Source: Phialocephala subalpina | Taxonomy: Eukaryota > Ascomycota > Leotiomycetes > Helotiales > Mollisiaceae | Assembly (NCBI GenBank): GCA_900073065.1 | Contig: FJOG01000001.1 | Location: 3,612,625 to 3,676,624 of the forward strand | Direction of reading: 5' to 3' | Length of the DNA: 64,000 bases | Shown here: piece after piece, positions 2,699-62,165 of the stretch | How the letters are laid out: the number at the start of each line of letters is the position of its first letter | Position numbering within the stretch: the first letter of the stretch is position 1 | Program-made: the position numbers and the translations under genes | Notes under the pieces: model-generated | The model's input: the letters and a program-made list of their open reading frames with translations, nothing else | Told to the model about the DNA's origin: nothing | Database searches by the model: none

Positions 2699-4211
2699 AT
2701 GGGCCTTTGCACAACTCTGTACCACTCTCTCAAAGATACCAGGTCGAGGGAAGCCCAACATGGTTCCCAACTCACCGTACAGCAAGCGCCATATAAATTA
2801 ACTCATTCAAGATATGTATGTGAAGCATGTCTCTTTCCGCAAAATCTAAAATACTAACAACAGCAATCGTCATAATTAGGAATAGCTGTGTTTCCACCAC
2901 TTCCAATGGCAAATTCGGGTCCCTGAGACTATCTTTTATCAGACTTTAGAGCGATTTAAGATTGGTCTCAATGACCACGAGAAGGAAGACTTTGGGCTCA
3001 CTACATTGGATGAAGTTAACGATATCATATGTGAAATACAGGATGAGCACGCATCGGAGCGTAAGATGCAGAATATGACGCGGATCCAAACGTTCTTGGA
3101 AGGCATGGAACAGTATGGTAATGTGATTGAGGTGTTCTTGAACGCGTCAGTTTTTGTTGCTTTTGTATGGGTAGGTCACTATATCACCTTCCTCAAATAA
3201 TTGTTGGTCAGCAACTCACGAATCATTTTGCAGGGCCAGTGAAGTTCCTGTTGCAGGTAAGGCTCATGAGAATGTTTTCATTAAAGCTAGGCCTCTAACC
3301 TCCAACAGGTCGCAAAAACCTGTACTGACTCCTTGGACTCACTGCTGAACACATACGAACAAATTTGCGAAACTATACCGCAGTTGCTTCAGTATGACAA
3401 GCTTTTCAAGCAGAATCCAGCAATGCAGCGGGTTCTGGGGCTCATATATAAAGATATTCTTGAATTTCACCGTCGAGCCTTGGTTGTTTTCAAACGCAGA
3501 TGTGAGCAGAAATCGCAAGCCTTCGACTACTGTTGCTGATATTACCGACAGCCTGGAGACGACATTTTAGTGCCACTTGGAAGGACTTTAATACTCATTT
3601 CGGGCGTCTCCTCGACAATCTTCGCCGTCATAAGAGGGACATTGAAAGCCAGGCCTCTTTGGTTGAGATTGAACGCAATCAATCCTTGAGGGAGGATCAA
3701 GAGAAGCAATTCCTTGCTGCCGAGAGCAAGGAAAGAGAGAGACAAGAGAGTCGTCATCGAGAAAATTTCACCTGCCAATTTTGACCTCGATCAAGAGGTC
3801 ATCTCCGAGAATTGGAGCAAAGAACCAGATTTTGGTCGCTGGTTGCTCAACCATGAAAAGGTGAAAGCCTGGTTTGACTCGGGGAATGCGGATGCTGGAG
3901 TACTGTGGCTGAAGGGCATCCCAGGCGCTGGTCAGATTGCCTTTTATTTTTCTTCAAATTGTCTTAGCAGGTTAATGATGAACACAGGTAAATCGGTACT
4001 TGCCTCCCGACTGATCGCAGAAGCCAGAGATCTCAAATCTCCCATTTTCTTCTATTGCAAGCACGAAGATAGGAGCAGAAGTTCATTAGCGGCAGCTCTA
4101 AAAGGATTTCTAGCTCAATTGATCCGCCTCAATTCAGAAGTCATCTCTCACATTTACGAAGAATGTTTTAGGAGTAGCGAGCTCACCCTTGAGACCCTAG
4201 ATTTCCTTTAA
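2699..4211 (+). pseudogene. 5' half of a broken DUF7708-NACHT NLR (STAND) gene
   Basis: After a short leader come the helical DUF7708-type region (about 2886-3500; motifs TLERFKIGLNDHEKEDF and YGNVIEVFLNASVFVAFVW) and then a NACHT start with the P-loop GIPGAGKS, interrupted by a phase-1 intron (about 3933-3990). Other likely introns are 2816-2885, 3171-3211 and 3501-3551. Damage: near 3170-3235 the usual exon junction falls out of frame unless an upstream acceptor is used; a frameshift lies near 3745; and a TAA at 4209-4211 follows LETLDFL. The Walker B part and everything after it are missing here but reappear at 13828. Fungal STANDs of this type are cytosolic signalling ATPases. The start codon is a guess. 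Confidence 0.7.
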
Positions 4212-4219
4212 AGTCTTAG

Positions 4220-5440
4220 ACGACTATTCGGCCTACCAAAATCCACTTCCGTCTCTAGACCTGAGCAGTCGCTGCTCTAACTTGAGCCGAGCCCCGAGTC
4301 TTGAGCACGCTAGTGAGTCAGCTGGATCACGCTCAGGGGGGTCCTATTTTGGCTCCCTCGATAATCGGTTATAGTTTCTATATTATCTGTATATAGAATT
4401 TTGCAAATCTTATTCCTTGTAATATAGCTACCTCTTTGAGCCTATTAAGAGATCATAACGGGGGCCGTTCTTAGTCCCTTGTCACATTCATCAAGGGTCC
4501 TTGTCGGAGCCGATTTGGGTCTCCTTTTTAAGCGAAAGGGCCTCGCTTAATGCCCCTCGAGGCCTCTCCTCCCTTCAAACAACCCAACTTGTATAGCGTA
4601 CGACTTCGATATTCTAAGAGCTTTATCAAATGATTTTATATAATTGTTTGGAAAGGTACAAAAAACGGTGCTACGAATCCAATGTCCGTCAGCGTCTGGG
4701 CTCCCAGCTATATTCTACTTTCATACAAGACGAGGCACAGTCTTCCCAAGAGCGAAGTTGCAGCAAGCAAGGGAAATACAACGCCCCGGTGCTTCTGTTC
4801 GACAAGGTACCGTGCAGGATTAGGCCATATCAGCACGCCTCCGCAGCTTAAGAAGAGTAGGCGTGCTTGGCTACTGCTGCTGACTGCCACTAGATCCATG
4901 TAGCGGCGATGCTGCATTAAGCAGGATTCATGAAAGGTTTGGGAGATTCATGCAAATCCTAGCAAGGCGGAATTACACTGACGTTAGAACTTAAACTGTG
5001 CTAGCAAAGGATTAGCTGGGTAAAGGGAGAGACATGCAGCAGCGATACCACGTCAAGTGGCTTTGGGAGATTCATGCAGATCCCAGCAAGGCAGACTTCA
5101 GCACCGATACTCAAACAGTACTAGCAAAAGGAGTAAAGGATCAGTTGGGGTTTCATTCAGAGGTACTGTAGAGATTCATGCTTCTGCGATACGACACCCA
5201 GAGGAGTCAGGCCAGATATACGTGAATGTGGTGCTTGTCCCATTCCTGGAGGTCAAAGCCGCTGGCACTCGCTGCTGCAAGAATCTCACTGTCGCCAGCG
5301 CATCGGTCTCTCCGAACGCAATTTTGCGGCCGAGAGGTTCCATGCTTGCATGGGGCTTCTTAGTAAGGCGTCTCCCCCGCAAATGCAATTTCTTCCTCGC
5401 AGAACAATCGACCCTACGGTAACATAGAGTCCATAAAATC
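4220..5440. other. Repeat-like non-coding stretch, no gene recognised
   Basis: GC-balanced sequence with no open frame that resembles a protein family. It is rich in short words such as gagcc, gagca and gagtc near 4260-4330, like the ends of fungal retroelements, but I cannot define an LTR pair or a primer binding site. It contains the direct repeat listed below. Confidence 0.4.
4938..5185. repeat. Imperfect direct repeat, about 124 bp unit, two copies plus partial copies
   Basis: The word tttgggagattcatgcarat starts at 4938 and again at 5062, 124 bp apart, followed in both by tccyagcaaggcrgayt and later by a variant of actagcaaa. Shorter partial matches (gattcatg) sit just upstream at about 4925 and downstream at about 5172. 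Confidence 0.6.
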
Positions 5441-6047: not shown

Positions 6048-6112
6048 AGGAGTGCAGTTGATGGGAGTGCAGTTAATGGGAGTGCAATTGATGAGAAGAG
6101 TGCAATTGATGG
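6048..6112. repeat. Four-copy tandem repeat of about 15 bp (gggagtgcarttgat)
   Basis: ggagtgcagttgat, gggagtgcagttaat, gggagtgcaattgat and a slightly longer gagaagagtgcaattgat follow one another directly after the preceding minisatellite. Differences are again transitions. Confidence 0.8.
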
Positions 6113-8441: not shown

Positions 8442-8942
8442 TTATATTAAACGCTTCTTTTTGTGTTCGGGCTTAAAGTAGGGCTTTCGGCGAGGCTTAT
8501 ACTTAGTTTTGCCAATAGCTTTAAGAATCTTTCGGATCGTGTTTCGATGGAGTTGATATCCCGATTTAGAAAGTATTGCAAGGGCGTGGAGAGTATCTTT
8601 TGGGTTCTTAAGAACATGCCGGAGAAGTGCCCTATTATCTCGTTCGAACGTTTTCTTAGTAGGTCTATTTCGGGGCTTTGATTTAAAGCTATTATCGTTT
8701 GTAGCTAGCCTCCGCTGGATAATATCCCTCACGGTAAAGTAAAGAGTGTCTTTTAGCCGTGAAATTGCGGAATATTTATGCCCATCGAGATAGCGGGTCC
8801 AAATTTGGGCTCTTTTCTTAGAAGAGGTCTCTTTTCGATCGGTCTTAATCGCGCGCCCTATGATGATAATTTTGAAGAAAGGAGTGTATGTGTGAGAGAA
8901 GATATAAGCGGGGAAAGAGGCGCAGGGTGGGGCCCTAAGCAC
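8442..8942 (-). pseudogene. N-terminal half of a Tc1-like transposase
   Basis: About 166 codons open on the minus strand. From the N terminus it shows a helix-turn-helix-like region (RAQIWTRYLDGHKYSAISRL), a second basic DNA-binding segment with a GRPR-like hook (KSKPRNRPTKKTFERDNRAL) and a third (SGYQLHRNTIRKILKAIG). This is the order of the paired-like DNA-binding domain of Tc1 transposases. The DDE catalytic domain should follow toward 7700, but that DNA is AT-rich and unreadable, so the element cannot move by itself. The true start is probably the methionine just before the IIIGRAIKTDRKETS segment. Confidence 0.75.
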
Positions 8943-8959
8943 TAACCAAAATAAGTAAA

Positions 8960-8988
8960 ATTAACGGACAACCCCTGGAACCGATTTG
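8960..8988 (-). repeat. Right terminal inverted repeat of the Tc1/mariner element
   Basis: acggacaacccctggaaccg followed by atttg; reverse complement of 7656-7684 with small differences. Followed by TA. Confidence 0.85.
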
Positions 8989-43058: not shown

Positions 43059-44219
43059 AGTTGGAACCCCCCCCCCCCCCACTTTGGGCCACCCTTTACC
43101 TTAGGCCACCTTTTACACCAAAAATACCGATTTTTAGCTTTTGTTATCTCCACGAATAATTATTATAAATACTTAAAATCAATTATTTAAAATTTGAATT
43201 TTTTATATAAAAATTAAAAGATCAATTAATTTCTTTTTAAATTTGGATTATATAATATTTTTTTAATAAAACTTAAAAAAAATTATATATTAATTATATA
43301 TATATATTTTTTTAATATAATATCCATTAATAAAAATTATACTTTATTATATAAAGATTCGAATTATAAAATTTTATAAAAAATTACTAATTAGTTTAAT
43401 TTTTATTAAATATTAAAAATATATATATATAAGTTTTTATTATTATTAATAAAAACCCTTAAATATTTAATACTTATTAATATACTTATATAATGAATAC
43501 AAATATAAATTTTTATTATAATATAATAATAATTATAAAAGTTATTAGAAATATTTAAAAACTTAAAATTTATATATAAATTATATAAGAAATTATTTTT
43601 TGATTTTCGAGATTTAATTAAAAAGTTTAAAAAAGTTTAAATCAAAAAAGCGAAATTTTGCGNNNNNNNNNNNNNNNNNNNNNNNNNNNNNNNNNNNNNN
43701 NNNNNNNNNNNNNNNNNNNNNNNNNNNNNNNNNNNNNNNNNNNNNNNNNNNNNNNNNNNNNNNNNNNNNNNNNNNNNNNNNNNNNNNNNNNNNNNNNNNN
43801 NNNNNNNNNNNNNNNNNNNNNNNNNNNNNNNNNNNNNNNNNNNNNNNNNNNNNNNNNNNNNNNNNNNNNNNNNNNNNNNNNNNNNNNNNNNNNNNNNNNN
43901 NNNNNNNNNNNNNNNNNNNNNNNNNNNNNNNNNNNNNNNNNNNNNNNNNNNNNNNNNNNNNNNNNNNNNNNNNNNNNNNNNNNNNNNNNNNNNNNNNNNN
44001 NNNNNNNNNNNNNNNNNNNNNNNNNNNNNNNNNNNNNNNNNNNNNNNNNNNNNNNNNNNNNNNNNNNNNNNNNNNNNNNNNNNNATTATATTTTAAATTT
44101 AAAATATATTATATATTAATTTTTAAATAATTTTATTAATTATTCGTAGAAATAATAAAGGTTGAAAATCGGTATTTTTGGAATAAAAGGTGGCCCAAAG
44201 TAAAGGGGAGGTTCCAACT
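43059..44219. mobile_element. TA-flanked inverted-repeat element, 1161 bp including an assembly gap
   Basis: The left end agttggaacccccccc... and the reverse complement of the right end agttggaacctcccctttac pair. They continue together through actttgggccacc, a CTTTTA word, CCAAAAATACCGATTTT and, after a few differences, ACGAATAATT: about 90 bp of imperfect inverted repeat. TA lies at 43057-43058 and 44220-44221. The left arm carries a run of about 16 C. The inside is AT-rich and partly unknown (N). No transposase is seen. Same family pattern as 32233-32989. Confidence 0.8.
43663..44084. other. Assembly gap (422 N)
   Basis: A run of N inside the AT-rich core of the inverted-repeat element. 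Confidence 0.99.
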
Positions 44220-44474
44220 TATTGATTTGGAGGTGATAAAGGGTCTTGGGGGAACGACTATTACCTCGCGATCGACTATTCTTCCAGTACTTGTCCCATC
44301 AATGGAGTGTGCAGGAGCTATCATTGAAGTGCCAAAAAGACTCCATCACGTGGGCCTTGTAGTGCCGATTCACGAACGAACCAATAAAGAGGGCGTTGGA
44401 GTTTGGGAATTCGAGACATTTGGGAGGATACGAGGTGAATATATTGGAGCTCTCCCAAAAGGCTACTTCACGTT

Positions 44475-44798
44475 TCAGATTTGTATCGAATTATTAACGC
44501 AGTGGAATATCACAGAAAACAGCAAGCACCAATTGCCCTTAGGTCCCGAAATCCCACTCGCCATCCCATCAAAGAAGCTCGAAGTCTTGCAATTGAACCT
44601 CATCCTATCAAGAGTAGCAATCGCCCTTTCAAATATAATACCGTCAAGATAAATATCTCCAATAACCTCGAAATAACTATCCATTAGACGAAGCACCATT
44701 AGAACCGAATAGCCCCCCAGAAGAATACAAACCATATCTCCTTCCTTCATATGCTCTTGATAAGGAGCCCATCCCACGAAGCCATACTTCGTCACCAC
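44475..44798 (-). pseudogene. C-terminal fragment of a HET-domain protein gene
   Basis: The minus-strand frame contains GFVGWAPYQEHMKEGDMVCI and LLGGYSVLMVLR, then YFEVIGDIYLDGIIFERAIA. The pattern G-(Y/F)-(V/I)-G-x-A-P-(x)n-G-D-x-(V/I)-C-(I/V)-L-G-G-x-x-V-P/L-x-(V/I)-L-R followed by Y-x-x-(I/V)-G-(E/D)-x-Y-(V/L)-x-G-I is the standard C-terminal end of fungal HET proteins. The HET domain itself, expected upstream (beyond 44800), is missing; AT-rich DNA lies there. Confidence 0.7.
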
Positions 44799-46392: not shown

Positions 46393-47294
46393 TCATGCAC
46401 CCTGTCCCCCGAAGCTGATCCCACTAATTGGGCCGTTGCTGATTCCTATCTGAAAGCCGGCGTTCTGATTTCCAAAAGTTACTTGTGTCGAACGATTCTG
46501 ACTTTCACTTGCAGCTCTTGAAACAACCTCCTCTCCAGCCTTTAACAAGAGTTCTTGGAGCAATATCTGCGAAGAATTAAGTGCGATCTGTTCTTCTTTA
46601 ATCCGATTGAGCGCCTTGTCTTTATCCTCTGCATTTTGGACCCCTTCCTGACCAGCGTCTATAAGACGTAGTTGTCCTAGAGTGCTCTCCACTTCCGTCA
46701 GTTGTTTATCTGTTGCTGCGATAGCCCCGGTGATCTCTGCCTCCTGCACTGAAATTGTTTTCTTGATCTCTTCGCTAATATGTGTATGACGAATCGAGCT
46801 ATATCTACACAAGAATAATTAGCACCCTCGTTGCTCACGCTATATGAAGCGGGAAGTACGTACAAGGTCGCTATGCCAACAACTGAGTTGATAGTAAGCT
46901 TGCAGGCTTGAAGCTGCTCGGATATGGACTTTATCTGACGTTGCTTGAAGAAGCCTACATTGACCCGATCTTGCCACGACAATTTCCCTTCTTCAGAATG
47001 TCTGGTCCATCGTTGGAGATCGGCTCTAAGCGTATCGCACGCTCTCGTGCAGCTGCTGATTACGACCTTTGACTCGTCGGCCACAGTCCCTCCAAGTGAC
47101 TTCCACTCAGAATCATGAACAGCTTGAAGTGATTTGAGGGCCAGGTCAACAGAGCGTAGATCTTCTTTTAGGCTCTCCACCGATTTTGGCGCATCGATAA
47201 TCCCCTGGAGGTCGTCAAGCAGAAGTCTTGTACCATGCAGCGCCGGGACCGTGACGCCAACGATACTTGCCGCAACACTGAGAGGTTCGGCCAT
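46393..47294 (-). CDS. HeLo-like (HELL-type) cell-death effector with C-terminal PP-type amyloid motif
   Basis: Exons 46864-47294 and 46393-46804 (minus strand), intron 59 nt, 280 residues. The N terminus MAEPLSVAASIVGVTVPALH is the amphipathic/hydrophobic first helix of HeLo/HELL and related fungal N-terminal domains. A helical bundle follows to about residue 150 (KLSWQDRVNVGFFKQRQIKS), then a coiled coil (EEIKKTISVQEAEITGAIAA). The last 32 residues hold VTFGNQNAGFQIGISNGPIS, with N258-x-G260-x-Q262-x-G264. This is the core of the RHIM-like PP motif by which fungal effectors such as HELLP form signalling amyloids. The expected role is membrane permeabilisation after templating by an NLR. It is divergent to an NLR carrying a matching motif, with 209 bp between the start codons. 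Confidence 0.82.
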
Positions 47295-47503
47295 TTATAG
47301 TTGATGCAAATGAAATCGTCGAGGCTATTAAGGAAGTGGTCGTGCGTTGGTAAGAGCTATGAGGCTGTAACGTTGAGATAGCCTTGGCGAGTTTGTTGGT
47401 TGCCTAAGGACAAAGTTAGAGGAGATGCAGACGCCAGCTCACACGCGGCTCCATATCATGATTTTATTACCCAAAGCCGTCGCACTCCACGAACACGTCT
47501 AGC
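47295..47503. promoter_or_regulatory. Shared 209-bp promoter region between the effector and NLR genes
   Basis: The two start codons face away from each other, at 47294 (minus) and 47504 (plus). So short a region must contain both promoters and suggests joint regulation. No clear TATA box or known operator is visible. Confidence 0.55.
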
Positions 47504-49694
47504 ATGGCACATAACGAGATTTCCTTTGGCGATCGGAACATCGGTCTTCAAGTAGGCCAAAGCTTCGCACCGATAAATGCTGAGATCCACCTCCCGCTCG
47601 GTAAGCTAGAACAGGCCTAAGCTCGCCCGTGCTAACGACCAGCTTCACCCAGATCAGCCAGAAACACCACCAGCGCCCTCCTCCACCATCCCCTTCCGCC
47701 GAGACCCCGATTTCATCGTTCGTCAGATACTGCTTGATCAGCTTCACGAAAAGTGCGCCGCACCGGCGGCTAGGACGGCTGTCGTTGGCTTAGGTGGTGT
47801 TGGGTATGTGAGAGGATATAAGCCCTGGTTCAACAGCTGACTCGCGCGAAGGAAGTCGCAACTCGCCATCGAATACTCTTACCAAGTCCGATGCCAGTCA
47901 CCGGAGACATGGGTTTTTTGGGTGCACGCAAGCAACGCCGCCCGGTTCGAACAGAGTTATGGGGAAATCGCAGACCACGTCAAGATCCCTGGCCGAAAAA
48001 ACTCAAAGGCGGATATATTCAAGCTTGTTCACGACTGGCTGCGAGATGAGAGGAATGGAAAGTGGTTTCTTGTCCTCGACAACGCCGATGATGCACGTTG
48101 GCTTCTCGAAACTCACATGTCTCATGAAAGGTCTGCGAGACCTCTCTGGGAGTACTTGCCACAGAGCCAGCATGGTTCGGTTCTTGTCACAACGCGGAGC
48201 AGAAGCGTAGCACTAAAGCTGGTTGAAGAGCGCGATATCGTCGCTGTGGAGCCGATGGACGAAGCGCATGCGGTAGCGCTCTTTGAAAGGAAGCTCTCAA
48301 CGAAAAGCGACCGGGAATATATTGTCGAGCTCGTAGCAGCGCTCGAATTTATGCCGCTTGCTGTTGTTCAAGCAGCCGCGTACATCAACCAAAGAACCCC
48401 ACGATGTTCAGTACGACAGTACATCGAGAAGTTCCAGAAGACGGATAGAAACAAGACGAGTCTTTTAGCTCACGAAGCAGGACACCTTCGCAGAGACCGA
48501 GAAGCTAAAAACTCTATCATCATCACCTGGCAAATATCGTTCGACTATATACATCAAGAAAGGCCATCGGCAGCTGATCTTCTATCGCTAATGAGCTTTT
48601 TTGATCGACAGGGGATTTCTGAAGATTTACTTCGGAGCGGGGGTGAAGCAGGAAACAGTAACAGAGACTTCGACAACCAGGATGGCAACAGCAATGGGCA
48701 CGACGAAGAAGACAGCAGATCAGAAACCAGCGTCACGGACGAGTTTGAGGATGATATATTGATGTTAAGAAACTACTCTTTCATCTTCGTCAACATAGTT
48801 GAGTCAACCTTTGGGATGCATCGGCTAGTGCAGTTAGCTACCCGGAAGTGGCTAGAAGCTCATAGACAGCTCGAAAGATGGAAACAGCAGTATATCAAGA
48901 GACTCTGTGCGGAATTTCCGACTGGAAAATACGAGAACTGGGCAAAGTGCGGGGCTCTTTTTCCTCATGTGCAGTTGGCACTAGCCCAGCAGCCAGAGGG
49001 GGACGATTCGTTAAGAGAGTGGGCCTTACTGCTTTATAACGCAGCATGGTATGCATTGTTGAGAGGTAGTTCTAGCGATGCAGAGAAGATGTCGGTGAAG
49101 TCGATGAAAGTGACGAAGAAGCAGCTTGGCCAGGATGATAAAGAGACATTGAGCAGTCAAACGATGGTAGCATTGGCATATATAGTAGGGGGACGATGGA
49201 AGGAGGCGGAAGAGCTGGAGGTGCAAGTAATAGAGACGAAGAAGCGGGTGCTGGGCCAAGAGCATCAAAATACGCTGGCCAGCATGAATAATTTAGCGTT
49301 GGCGTTCCAGAATCAAGGGCGATGGAAGGAGGCCGAAGAGCTAGGGGTACAAGTGATGGAGACGAGTTCGCGGGTACTGGGCCAAGAGCATCCAGATACA
49401 CTGACTAGCATAGCTAATCTGGCGTCAACGTTCTGGAATCAAAAGCGATGGAAGGAGGCAGAAGAGCTAGGGGTACAAGTAATGGAGACGAGGAAGCGAG
49501 TGCTAGGTCAAGAGCATCCATCCACGCTAGCCAGCATGAATAACCTTGCCTACACATGGAAGAACCAAAATCGGGATGCAGAGGCTCTAGACTTACTTTC
49601 TTCGTGTCTCAAACTATCGAGAAGGAAATTAGGGGCAAATCATCCTAATACTCTGGCATGTGCTCAAACATATAATGCTTGGAAAATGGAATGA
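47504..49694 (+). CDS. NB-ARC-TPR NLR with N-terminal PP-type amyloid motif
   Basis: Exons 47504-47600, 47653-47803 and 47852-49694, 696 residues. Residues 5-31 (EISFGDRNIGLQVGQSFAPI...) carry N12-x-G14-x-Q16-x-G18, the same core as the partner effector. A proline-rich linker (DQPETPPAPSSTIPFRRDPD) leads to NB-ARC: Walker A GLGGVGKS at 78-85, Walker B KWFLVLDNADD near 153-163, the GSVLVTTRSR strand, MPLAVVQAA (GxP-like), and FGMHRLVQLA as the MHD-like motif. From about residue 425 to the end there are kinesin-light-chain-type TPRs with the 42-residue phrase GRWKEAEELGVQVMET...LGQ. The NLR is expected to recognise a ligand with its TPRs and nucleate amyloid through its N terminus. All three exons join without a stop, so it appears intact. 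The 48-52-nt introns have CTAAC/CTGAC branch sites. Confidence 0.88.
49194..49571 (+). repeat. Three near-identical 126-bp units encoding TPRs
   Basis: Units start at 49194, 49320 and 49446 with cgatggaaggaggc, each 126 bp (42 codons). They differ at few sites within the phrase gaagagctaggggtacaagt. Later units are more diverged. Such high internal identity in the sensor of an NLR points to recent duplication or conversion. Confidence 0.85.
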
Positions 49695-49899: not shown

Positions 49900-50510
49900 G
49901 AAAAGGAAGATAACTGAAAATGAAGGTCGTGAAAGAGAGAGCATTTATATCACTCCCCTTTACCTCTTGCGAGGTGAGCTATGCCTCTTTAAGAAGGTAC
50001 AGCCGTGCCTTCAACTCATCCGCCTTCAACTCGTACGTTACCGATGTCTAATCCCCTCAGCTTCTCCCCAGTATCTGCAAATATGGGTAGTAACCGTGTT
50101 GATATCCGGTTCCGGGCCACAAAGACTATGCTTGCCGCCCAATACAACCCAGGTGGCACTTCGGCACGTGGTTGTGAGAAGGTAGGATCACTATCTGGGG
50201 GCTTCAGCTGCAAGAACACCTCAGGTTGCCGTGAATGGGAAAGTATAAACGTAGGTGATATATGATGCTTCGATTGTGAATGTCACCATCGAAAATCAGT
50301 CAGGTAGAGTGATTGTGGTGGCAGTCTCTTGCTGGTAGATACCTCGACTCAGCGATTCACATCGACTTCCACATTCATCTCAGCCAGAACCACGACTTCG
50401 CAGATTCACGAGGACGGAGAAAGATCAAAAATGGAGTTCCGATCCTCAACCTGCTACGACTCTTAGGAATTAATCTTTCTCACTCAAACTCCTAGACACA
50501 AACCGACAAC
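49900..50510. other. Intergenic region, no gene recognised
   Basis: A 95-codon frame without motifs. The final 150 bp form the leader of the next gene. Confidence 0.35.
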
Positions 50511-51188
50511 ATGAGCTTCCTCAGTTTGACAAAGTGCATATGTTCTGGAAAAGGCACCTGCTCCTACTGCGTGAAGAACGCTCTTTCTTTACGCGCAAGC
50601 AGATCCTCTGTCAAAAGAACCCAGGATTCAACGGAAACTCCACTCGTCACCAATCTCCAACGAGACTCGGCCTCAAGTCAACCTTCGACTACAAAGAAAA
50701 AAGATGGAAAAGGCTCCAGCAAACGCCTCTCCTCGAAACTCTCATCTGATGCCGATACAACGAAGCCTCCGAAGCCAGAGCATGAGGACTCATCCACCAA
50801 ATCTACATTCAAATCAGAGTACGACATCCAGATGGCCGAGCGGCAGATGTCAATAAGGTCTCTCCCTCCCGCCGAGCAGAAGAAGCAAGAGGAGTGGGCT
50901 CAGACACAACTGAAGCAAAACGCTAGTTCGAACTGCCCAGTTGGCTTGATCTGGATCAGGTGCAAAAATGGATACAGATGCCTTGGAGGAGCACATTATG
51001 TGTCTGATGAACTGCTTGCCGAAGGTAAAGGTGGCTGGTATCACTACGGCAAGCACCGCGGCAGTCGCTGTAAAGCGAACTATGGCCCAGATCCCAAGTT
51101 GGGAAACCTCTCTGAAAAAGAGAAGAGGAAGATTCGGCTCCAGATTTTTGGTAAGGAGAATCCGACTGCGAAGGATAAGTTGTGGTGA
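50511..51188 (+). CDS. Conserved unknown protein with a Cys/Trp/Gly-rich C-terminal module
   Basis: Intronless, 225 residues; the ATG follows a CA-rich leader (accgacaacATGAGC). Residues 9-20 hold a Cys cluster (CICSGKGTCSYC), possibly a small metal site. Residues 25-140 are Ser/Lys-rich and disordered. Residues 142-185 are the conserved-looking module: CPVGLIWIRCKNGYRCLGGA followed by HYVSDELLAEGKGGWYHYG and a Cys. I have seen a similar C-P-x-G...GYxCxGGxHxV(T/S)DELLAEGxGG pattern in other uncharacterised fungal proteins. No signal peptide, so probably intracellular. Confidence 0.6.
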   Translation: MSFLSLTKCICSGKGTCSYCVKNALSLRASRSSVKRTQDSTETPLVTNLQRDSASSQPSTTKKKDGKGSSKRLSSKLSSDADTTKPPKPEHEDSSTKSTFKSEYDIQMAERQMSIRSLPPAEQKKQEEWAQTQLKQNASSNCPVGLIWIRCKNGYRCLGGAHYVSDELLAEGKGGWYHYGKHRGSRCKANYGPDPKLGNLSEKEKRKIRLQIFGKENPTAKDKLW

Positions 51189-51366: not shown

Positions 51367-52749
51367 TCACAACCCCACCAACCCCGCAGCCCTCCTCCCC
51401 TCCTCCCCACTCAAAATCCCCTTCTCCCCAATCCATCCCTTAAACGTCGCCTCATCCCTCTCAATCGTATAATTCCCCCCAAAATCCTTCGGCACCTTCC
51501 CCCCATCCAAGAAAGCCTTCACCTGTCCCCTCATATACTCCTTATTAATTTCCGTCGTCGGCGTCGCCGCCACGTAAACAACACTCGCATCCTGCTCTCC
51601 CAAATGCTCGACCTCAACCGCGTGTAACATGTCGCAATGCCACCAGATAGTATCTCCTGGCTCCATGCGAGGGATGTTGACCATACATTCTCGAATCCTG
51701 AGATGTGGGTGGGATCCTGGTGCTGCGCGTTGACTTTCATTCTTGAAGGTTCCGGGGAACCAGCCTGATGAGATGTCGAATGTCCATTTCGATGCGTCCA
51801 TGATATCTTCCTCTTTCTCTGGGGGCGAGAAAAATGGTCGTAGGAGAACATAAGCAATCGTAGTCTTAACATCAGGATACAACAACAAACTACCCTCCTG
51901 TTTCCCCGCCGCTGTTAAAGCTGTCCATCCCTGATAAGCTCTGAGAACAGTAGAGTGATATCCTCCATCCATGGATTGCTTTGCGTCTTTACGTTTTTCC
52001 AAGTCGTAGAGATCTAATTCTTCGGGGAGCCCAGAGAAGACTTTGCCGTAGACGGAGCGGTAGGATGGATCGGCCCAACGACATAACGAACCGGCATCGA
52101 TATGTGGACCGAGACCGTAGAAGGGGATCTTTGGGGGGCGGATACGGACTGCGTCTGCGTAGGAGAGGGGGTCGGGGCTGGTGGTTGGGTTTGTGGGACT
52201 GTCGTGCCAGAATTCGTTTAGGATGCGTTGCAGTTTGAGGGAGTTCGGGTGAGATCTAGCGGCGAGTTGGGTGGGTGACCAGTACAGGCGGAGGACGTAG
52301 GGGGTTTCTTCTGGCCAACCTGCAGAAAGTCAGTATAATGTCCAAGGTTGAAATGTAGATTCGAAGAGTGGCTTACCTCCAATGTATTCTCTATTGTCTT
52401 GGTAAAATTGCTTCACATCCTTAAACCAACTCTTCGCCAACTTCTCCTCCACCACCCCCCTAACAACAAAACATCCTCGCTTCTTCAGCTCCTCTCTCTT
52501 TTCGTCGCTAAGAGTGAGCATATCCTCATATTTAACTTCTGGGATAATGCTCGTTCCCTTCTCCGCGATTTCTTCTGTCAGAGTCTCGAGATCTTTGCAG
52601 ACTTTCAGCCATGCTTTCGTGATTGCTTCTTGGCCGTAGATGGAAACGATTTCTTGTTTGTACTTCAGCAGGGAGCCGGTGGGGTCGGCTTCGCCTTTGG
52701 ATTCGGTGAACTCGGGCCAGGTTGGCCAGACTTCGAGTTTGCCGGGCAT
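51367..52749 (-). CDS. DUF1479-family 2-oxoglutarate/Fe(II) dioxygenase-like protein
   Basis: Exons 52377-52749 and 51367-52319 (minus strand), intron 57 nt, 441 residues. The N-terminal part has RGCFVVRGVVEEKLAKSWF, followed by the dioxygenase core. GLGPHIDAGSLCRW gives the His-x-Asp iron ligands and DTIWWHCDMLHAVEVEHLGE contains the distal His (MLHAVE). WFPGTFKNESQR and VYVAATPTT are also typical of PF07350. The family resembles phytanoyl-CoA-type oxygenases and is common in fungi and bacteria; the natural substrate is unknown. No signal peptide or membrane segment. Low codon ambiguity and consistent splicing suggest an intact gene. Confidence 0.85.
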
Positions 52750-59939: not shown

Positions 59940-62165
59940 CATACTGCTAGATTCACGGTTCTTCGAAGATCACGCCTCTCGTAGGCTTGCAGGAAGTCGA
60001 GCAAGGGCCTCGATAAGCCTGTCTTTCCTTCCTGGAACTCCAGCTCTTGCAAGGTGATAGAACAAACTGTCCTGTTTCTCGACCTCCAAGTCGTTGTACT
60101 TCTGAACTTCTGAGCTGACGACATTCTCAAGTTCCGAGCTCGACGAGGCGGGAGCGGCCATGATTGCCGGGTTGAGGATTATCGTTCTGCATTTTAACTT
60201 CCAGAAATCTGGAGAGCCACAATGAAGTGATGATGGAGTGGGCGAAATCTGTTGACGCATAATCTTGTGTAAGTAGCAGGAATTCTTGGACAGACAAGTG
60301 AGCAAAACGAAAGACCTGGGAGGTTTCGTCGAGTACAACTAGGTTGCAGCAGATATCCAGTACCTGTGATGTAGATACCGCATTGTTGTTAGGTCGGATG
60401 AAATCTCTAAATTTCCTCTCGGGGAGTGCCTGTTGGAGTTCTAAGAGCACGCAGAATACGTTTCTCGATATCACTCATGCAACAGCATCTTGGTTTTGAT
60501 TGACTCGGTTGTAAATCTCCGCGTATACCTCTTGCAGAGTAGGGGGCATTTTCTCAAGACCTGTCAGAGTTAGCGTACCGTAAGGGAGAATCAGAAATGG
60601 GGTAAGGTCGAGTGTCTCACGGCCGCGGATATCTTCATCTGTTTTGAGGGTTGTTAGGTTCTACAGCTGCAAACTGGCCCAAAGAAACCTTAAGAGAATC
60701 AATTAGCTGGGATTCAAATCCAAGATTTCATGACCTGCATCCCACATGCATCCGAAGTGACCGTCTTGACAATTTGTTTGTGAAGCTCTGGCCGTTCTTG
60801 ACTTTCCCGCAGCAAAAGTCCCGAGGCAATAAGTCCATATATCTTCCATTCCACGAACGCTTTGATATCCGCTGAATTCCCGGTCGAGCTGATTTCGATG
60901 GCTTGAGAATTCTGTAGACGGAAGAAAATATCTGCTTGGTACCTACTTGATACGAAGAACTTGATGAGACTGGAGGCATTTTCAATGGTGCATAAAATGA
61001 AGTCCAGTACGATGCGTCTGACTTCATGACTGCATTCATCAAGAGCATCGATGATGATAACAGTCATTGGGCGAAGGTTGACTAGCTCTAATACTAATTT
61101 CTGCATTTCGTCGACGTCTAAACGACTGGGTGAACCGCCTTGCTCTTCCTCTTCCTCTTCGTACCTCTGTACGACTGGGGGAAGAAGGTCTGCAGAAGGG
61201 TTCAGGTTAGAGATTTGGCGAGCGATACTTGAAATGATAGACCCAGAATCTGATCTCGAATGTTCCGCTGGATTACGAGAGCAGAAGACGAAAGCAGGGC
61301 GAGGTCCGAGCTCATTCGTTGAGATTTTGATCACCTCCTCGATGACAATGGATCTGCAGCATCGGTCAGAACAGGGTTTATTGGAGAGAAGGTCGCAACT
61401 TACACCAACTTGGTCTTGCCAGATCCAGGAATTCCGTGTAACCAGATCAGGGATGATGCGCTGTCATCTTTCTATCTTTTATACACATCATCTTGCAGCA
61501 ACCACTGACCAGTTCCTTGAAGAATTTCTCTTTTGCTCTCTTTGTGTTGTTTGATGTAATCAAGGCATTTCTTGTCTGAAATCCAGTCAAGAATATTTCG
61601 TCTCTTTTCCTCTGGCACAGGTAGTCACCAGCTAAAGTGCGCACTAGGCAATGCAAATTTGAAATCTTACTCTCAAGATTGTCGTGAATATTTTGAATCC
61701 AAGATGACATTCGCGCTAACGGCGCATCGAAATTTGCTAAAACTTGTCTGAGCTCCTGATGATGTATCGAGTTGTCTGTAAAGATGAAACGTCTTTGTCA
61801 GCCAGGTTGTCACCCTATTTCGAGCCAATCCTTTCGATGTATCAATCTCGCAGCCTTGCATAGACTTTCTCAGGCTAGAATATTCTTGGTTGGAACTCCT
61901 GCCAATGGAAGCCATGGCGGAAGGAGAGGAAGTCTAGAAAGTCCCGGCAAGACTACGAGACTAATACATCGAAAGCGCTGCCTCGGAGTTGCATGATTAT
62001 TTCATCTCCAGAATCTTGACAAACCTTCGTGCGAGACTAACGAAGCCCATTTCTCCACTTCATTCAAAGACTCCTTGATCTCATCTAACGGGCTTTGGAA
62101 CTCAGCCTTATCTCTAAAGGCGCCCAATGTGATTCGAATTATAAGTCTGGTTAGCAGGTCGAGCA
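59940..62165 (-). pseudogene. Decayed NACHT NLR gene
   Basis: Read from 62165 downwards: an N-terminal helical part (DEIKESLNEVEKWASL and, later, WIQNIHDNLESKI), the P-loop ASSLIWLHGIPGSGKTKL (around 61400-61450) with introns on both sides, FVFCSRNPAEHSRSD, Walker B MTVIIIDALDECSHE, LIKFFVSSRYQADIFFRLQ, GMFRW-like end of the NACHT region, then VYAEIYNRVNQNQDAVA, a TGA, and the winged-helix/downstream block LDICCNLVVLDETSQVFRFA followed by HLSVQEFLL. Stops at LQL-x-NL (TAG) and VA-x-VIS (TGA) sit where Gln and Arg are likely. The 3' end is unclear: no ankyrin or WD repeats follow before 59940. N-terminal exon boundaries could not be resolved. Confidence 0.7.

Follow-up and report, generated by a model that had tools for sequence, protein, structure and literature searches.

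Gene pair and surroundings

An effector gene and an NLR gene lie next to each other and divergently, on the minus and plus strand respectively, at positions 46393 to 49694 of a 64,000-nt stretch (the window) of the genome of Phialocephala subalpina, described in the available text of PMC5148876 as a helotialean root endophyte. Their start codons are 209 bp apart, as the initial annotation had stated and the gene models confirm, and the stretch between them (47295..47503) is one that we infer to be a shared promoter region.

Based on the splice model, the effector is an intact HeLo-like (PF17111) protein of 280 aa with the tail ...FGNQNAGFQIGISNGPISG... Exon 1 (46864..47294, minus strand, start codon at 47294) encodes the HeLo-like domain, which was matched by the Pfam profile over aa 2-217 with 72.2 bits (cut-off 27.2). 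It is followed by a GT-AG intron (46805..46863, minus strand), in which a branch-like GCTAAT element was recognised by eye, and by exon 2 (46393..46804, minus strand, stop at 46393-46395), which encodes C-terminal helices and the PP-motif tail. The PP motif itself, placed by its position and by profile scores, spans aa 252-272 (VTFGNQNAGFQIGISNGPISG; 46420..46482, minus strand), with the core NAGFQIG at aa 258-264. Among the 120 listed homologues (of 191), no protein is identical to the effector. Therefore, the published P. subalpina annotation may lack this gene. The best of these homologues, P0001, is of equal length and has 259 of the 280 residues in common (93%).

The initial annotation had proposed an AlphaFold model of the N-terminal 150 residues of the effector, and AlphaFold2 was run on P0001 with a 59-sequence alignment. 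The model is helical from residue 7 to 246, with a mean pLDDT of 81.7. Within the first 24 ten-residue blocks, 23 reach a pLDDT of 73-96, block 191-200 being the one at 53, while the last four blocks, including the motif tail, are unstructured and of low confidence at 53-62. A predicted structure of this kind fits a killer domain that is folded and has a disordered amyloid tail behind it. No specific PDB fold, such as the MLKL-related four-helix bundle, was singled out, as the matches were generic helical bundles only.

The NLR is an intact NB-ARC/TPR protein of 696 aa that starts with ...FGDRNIGLQVGQSFAPIN... and equals, in all residues, P0121, a P. subalpina database entry named 'related to kinesin light chain'. 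Its three plus-strand exons encode the PP motif (exon 1, 47504..47600), the linker and the start of the NB-ARC domain (exon 2, 47653..47803, from the splice model and Pfam), and the rest of NB-ARC, DUF7779, the TPR repeats and the stop (exon 3, 47852..49694, from Pfam); both introns are GT-AG. The PP motif at aa 6-26 (ISFGDRNIGLQVGQSFAPINA; 47519..47581, plus strand) is supported by the effector-motif HMM described below and has the core NIGLQVG at aa 12-18. The Pfam matches are all above cut-off: NB-ARC with 35.1 bits (cut-off 23.5; aa 61-284), DUF7779 with 37.2 bits and TPR_10 with 160.7 bits (cut-off 27.5). Tandem Repeats Finder identified 2.8 copies of a 126-bp (42-aa) TPR unit at 49194..49543 (plus strand), the three units being 75-78% identical in DNA and 69-76% in protein. 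With 321.1 bits, where 300 are required, P0121 also passes NCBIfam FxSxx_TPR, a family model made for bacterial and archaeal annotation. The initial annotation had reported N-x-G-F-Q-I-G at the end of the effector, N-x-G-L-Q-V-G at the start of the NLR and two intact genes, and these statements hold for both gene models, which are open throughout with GT-AG borders at all introns.

Neither gene carries signs of repeat-induced mutation by GC content and dinucleotide ratios at the thresholds usual for such indices: GC is 49% in the effector and 50% in the NLR gene, TA/AT is 0.73 in both, and (CA+TG)/(AC+GT) is 1.29 and 1.31, respectively. The left flank of the pair is AT-rich (38% GC), and a run of N at 43663-44084 lies within an AT-rich block there. 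The window contains 36 open frames of at least 160 aa, of which 20 besides the pair were scanned with Pfam. The initial annotation had described the window as full of broken NLRs; among the scanned frames three look NLR-type, namely a SesA-like frame at 145-702, just below the profile cut-off, and two NPHP3_N frames at 3690-4208 and 60717-61463; a frame with a Tc3-type transposase domain lies at 8445-8960.

PP motifs and partnership across fungi

The two 21-aa motifs of the pair are identical at 9 positions (43%), with a BLOSUM score of 53. According to the available text of PMC9815663, the core of PP motifs reads N-x-G-x-Q-x-G-x-N. NxGxQxG is present in both proteins and the final N is replaced by S in both; in the effector an N follows one residue beyond the expected position. 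Among the 120 effector homologues listed (of 191; some are fragments), 82 have a PP-like core at the C-terminus, and among the 212 listed NLRs, own included, 175 have one at the N-terminus. Among the matches listed, at least 25 further contigs appear to carry homologues of both proteins. These were recognised by their length together with the species name, and in the case of one metagenome contig by length only, bearing in mind that a contig of several Mb common to both can be coincidence. Consecutive locus tags were found in four pairs, from Arachnomyces, Trapelia, Leptodophora and Coleophoma.

From the listed proteins (120 of 191, 120 of 722 and 120 of 891), partners on contigs of equal length were selected by eye, giving a set of 23 pairs, own included. 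Cadophora, Leptodontidium MPI-SDFR-AT-0119 and Paraphaeosphaeria, with several effectors or NLRs, were left out, and the Seiridium effector was kept though it is without the usual left half of the motif. Over 21 aa, the mean identity is 11.09/21 within pairs and 10.00 between them, and none of 20,000 shuffles reached the within-pair value. The 23 pairs were also stratified by taxonomic class, with the metagenome pair as a class of its own; the p values are then 0.00005 (identity) and 0.00010 (BLOSUM) for 21 aa, and 0.00065 and 0.00095 for the 11-aa core. Such a co-variation signal could also arise, without selection on seeding, if the two genes of a pair are inherited together as one linked unit.

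In 20 of the 23 pairs both partners have the same type of residue behind the central Q, small with small or aliphatic with aliphatic (Fisher p 0.0034), the exceptions being Lepidopterella, Mollisia and Seiridium. PP motifs may fall into two partner-matched sub-types according to the post-Q residue, small (A/G/S) or aliphatic (I/V/M). The window pair lends no support to the trend in overall similarity and is poorly matched: its own partner ranks 16 (identity) and 15 (BLOSUM) of 23 over 21 aa, and 19 (identity) and 23 (BLOSUM) over the 11-aa core. The sub-type still matches, being aliphatic in both. In the pair of Arachnomyces sp. PD_36 (P0014 and P0124), E replaces the central Q in both motifs (GFEIG, GIEIG), and an E at this position also occurs in several other NLRs.

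Genomic relatives and profile tests

Two protein searches of the P. subalpina genome (25 + 21 candidates, scored exon by exon) retrieved no second intact effector of the family. These searches covered candidates of the window effector's family in sequence not masked as N; many other PF17111 loci (41 matches) exist in the genome. Frame-by-frame reading by eye showed effector remnants at three places: those on C78 and C47 contain stops or frameshifts, and the one on C83 has neither a start nor a second exon. Two weak effector matches (C34 and C47:3074152) are distant PF17111 relatives. On the receptor side, P0255 (C78) and P0266 (C22) are further annotated PP-NLRs of the NLR's clade, with the small-type motif GFQAG, and a more distant PP-NLR with GLQVG lies on C46 around 1103400 (N-terminal motif NYGLQVGFNKGHI).

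In the stretch C78:138200-148100, a HeLo-like gene and a PP-NLR gene with motifs of the small type again stand divergently as a pair, consisting of a broken effector (positions 3789-4659 of that stretch, minus strand; stops and frameshifts, by eye) and P0255 (4776-7557, plus strand, from the annotation). P0266 is annotated on the minus strand from position 6076 within C22:6000-15900, and no effector relative was matched in this 10-kb stretch, of which 997 bases are N. In the C46 stretch, an ankyrin-like frame (1088-2076) and, farther on, a lipase-like frame (4484-4999) were seen by eye. For related NLRs on C64 and C47, no PP exon was seen upstream by eye, where a frame reads HET-domain-like. 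The C47 stretch also has an effector remnant about 1.5 kb downstream.

Motif HMMs were built from the homologous motifs, leaving out the window's own sequences. The effector-motif HMM (78 rows, at least one of which, P0025, is a misplaced match) scores 14.2 bits on the N-terminal 40 aa of the NLR, a value reached by none of the 4119 scored shuffles (of 5000; best 6.4). The NLR-motif HMM scores 30.1 bits on the C-terminal 40 aa of the effector, again reached by none of the 4816 scored shuffles (of 5000; best 12.1). The initial annotation had named background scores for both motifs as evidence against its reading; with these HMMs both lie above every scored shuffle. In full-length searches, the NLR-motif HMM retrieves the own effector with an E value of 1.1e-7. 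The effector-motif HMM retrieves the own NLR with 0.014, which is only narrowly better than the best reversed decoy (0.046).

Pfam's PP profile is Ses_B (PF17046), called 'misnamed SesB' in PMC12261475. It falls below its cut-off of 23.2 on the effector, with 14.0 bits on the whole protein (aa 254-272) and 18.1 bits on the last 40 aa, and has no match on the own NLR, as a whole protein or as a 40-50 aa piece. All four effector homologues scanned also score below the cut-off (14.7-15.7 bits), so this cut-off is strict for this branch. Of three NLR homologues from other species, P0172 (28.9) and P0186 (25.3) pass and P0123 (20.0) falls below. In the comparison with PP, HET-s and sigma profiles put forward in the initial annotation, the curated PP profile thus stayed below threshold on the effector and gave no match on the NLR, and neither protein matched a HET-s or sigma family at E 0.1.

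Taking the motifs for those of the HET-s (HRAM) or sigma family instead has in its favour that, according to the available text of PMC9815663, the same gene layout occurs with those motifs. No such Pfam family matched either protein at E 0.1, however, and the only amyloid-motif profile match in either is the sub-threshold one of Ses_B, a PP profile, on the effector, which makes this assignment extremely improbable. We give just as little credence to chance G-x-Q-x-G matches in two unrelated neighbours. The strict DNA form of the motif has 13 matches in 68 Mb and the reversed-pattern control 9, so a single strict match means little. At the pair, however, two such matches lie 1,092 bp apart, for which the expectation is 0.0025, and they are at the exact termini, conserved across the family and co-varying between partners. 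Among the 11 other strict matches, judged by eye, only the one on C46 is at an NLR N-terminus, and an effector C-terminus was recognised at none of them.

Interpretation and known systems

Observed directly were the structures of the genes, their domains and motifs, and a partnership of the two that is conserved. The pair is very probably an amyloid signalosome of the HELLP/PNT1 type that consists of two genes and uses a PP (RHIM-like) motif. Because layout, domains and motif match hellp/pnt1 of P. anserina, it would be a new member of this known kind. The initial annotation had offered the same reading by analogy, and it agrees with the domains, with where the motifs sit and how the genes are ordered, with conservation across the family and with the co-variation of partners. 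By extrapolation from P. anserina and C. globosum, the TPR repeats of the NLR would sense a ligand and its NB-ARC domain would drive oligomerisation. The clustered N-terminal PP motifs might then nucleate an amyloid that acts as a template for the C-terminal PP motif of the HeLo-like effector, and the converted effector would relocate to the plasma membrane, attack it and cause cell death; an immune or non-self trigger is likewise expected from these two fungi.

As the only intact effector of its family found in P. subalpina, the window effector may be one on which several receptors converge, which makes this fungus a candidate for one effector under several NLRs. A single effector activated by different NLRs was already allowed for in the available text of PMC5485727, and the opposite branching, in which NLRs with similar motifs activate several unlinked executioners, was predicted in that of PMC7889193. 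A stronger form, in which receptors of both sub-types, two of them without an intact adjacent effector, share the window effector across a leaky sub-type boundary, is tentative and in our estimation rather doubtful.

A related alternative is that the genes are true HELLP/PNT1 descendants in which the NLR motif has drifted, so that other PP-NLRs would now be the main drivers of the effector, or the pair would have no active role. The poor ranking of the own motifs (15-23 of 23) would fit, as would the effector motif being at least as close to those of C78 (10/21, BLOSUM 60) and C22 (11/21, 58) as to its neighbour (9/21, 53), with C46 at 8/21. Moreover, PF17046 scores 17.1, 14.5 and 18.5 bits on 40-50 aa pieces from C78, C22 and C46 (all below 23.2) and nothing on the own NLR. 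However, full-length P0255 and P0266 are likewise without PF17046 among the matches listed, and the 43% identity is inside the range of working pairs (PMC7885112, available text). In addition, the motif type G-[LF]-[QE]-V-G-Q-S-[FY] recurs in effector-linked NLRs of Lepidopterella, Mytilinidion and Phialemonium, so the NLR motif looks like a maintained variant, and we regard drift as distinctly improbable. Vegetative incompatibility (non-self recognition) rather than an antimicrobial role would leave the mechanism unchanged and alter the trigger. The precedent of [Het-s] in the available text of PMC7889193 and the TPR units, whose 75-78% DNA identity would suit a changeable recognition surface, speak weakly for it; we consider this role unlikely.

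Read as a HELLP/PNT1-type signalosome, the pair shows that a widespread root endophyte has what appears from its sequence to be a PP/RHIM-like cell-death switch in intact form. It also makes available a set of motif pairs that are linked as partners and vary naturally. With the window effector motif and the four PP-NLR motifs of the genome, sub-type insulation can be tested directly against effector sharing. Should PP motifs and the RHIM motifs of mammals have a common origin, the pair set also bears on what determines seeding specificity in this motif family. The added interest lies in the sub-types that are matched between partners and in the possibility that many receptors act on one effector.

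According to the available text of PMC7885112, hellp-pnt1 of P. anserina likewise consists of adjacent genes for a HeLo-like effector with a C-terminal PP motif and a PP-NB-ARC-TPR NLR with the motif within its first 31 residues. Motif identity inside working clusters is given there as 32-48%, over that paper's own alignment, similar to the 43% of the window pair. Unlike hellp-pnt1, the window pair comes from the Leotiomycetes, and its NLR motif continues with QSFAPIN after the core. In the hellp-sbp-pnt1 cluster of Chaetomium globosum, as described in the available portions of PMC5485727 and PMC7885112, a PP-NLR also adjoins a HeLo-like PP effector, but the cluster adds the lipase effector SBP. 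Of the scanned frames beside the window pair, the one at 51370-52329 is Gig2-like and those at 44140-44649 and 50496-51185 have no match in Pfam, so that by this measure none of the three is a lipase. The two-gene, NLR-seeded amyloid activation resembles that of nwd2/het-S and fnt1/hellf in P. anserina (PMC7885112 and PMC7889193, available text), which use the repeated beta-solenoid motif of the HET-s type, whereas the window pair has a single PP motif. The PP class NLR07 comprises 296 NLRs in the available text of PMC9815663, and for 37 of these a similar stretch at a protein's C-terminus is encoded no more than 20 kb away. The PP signalosome kind is already known from two other fungi and is not itself new; the window pair would extend it to a new lineage.
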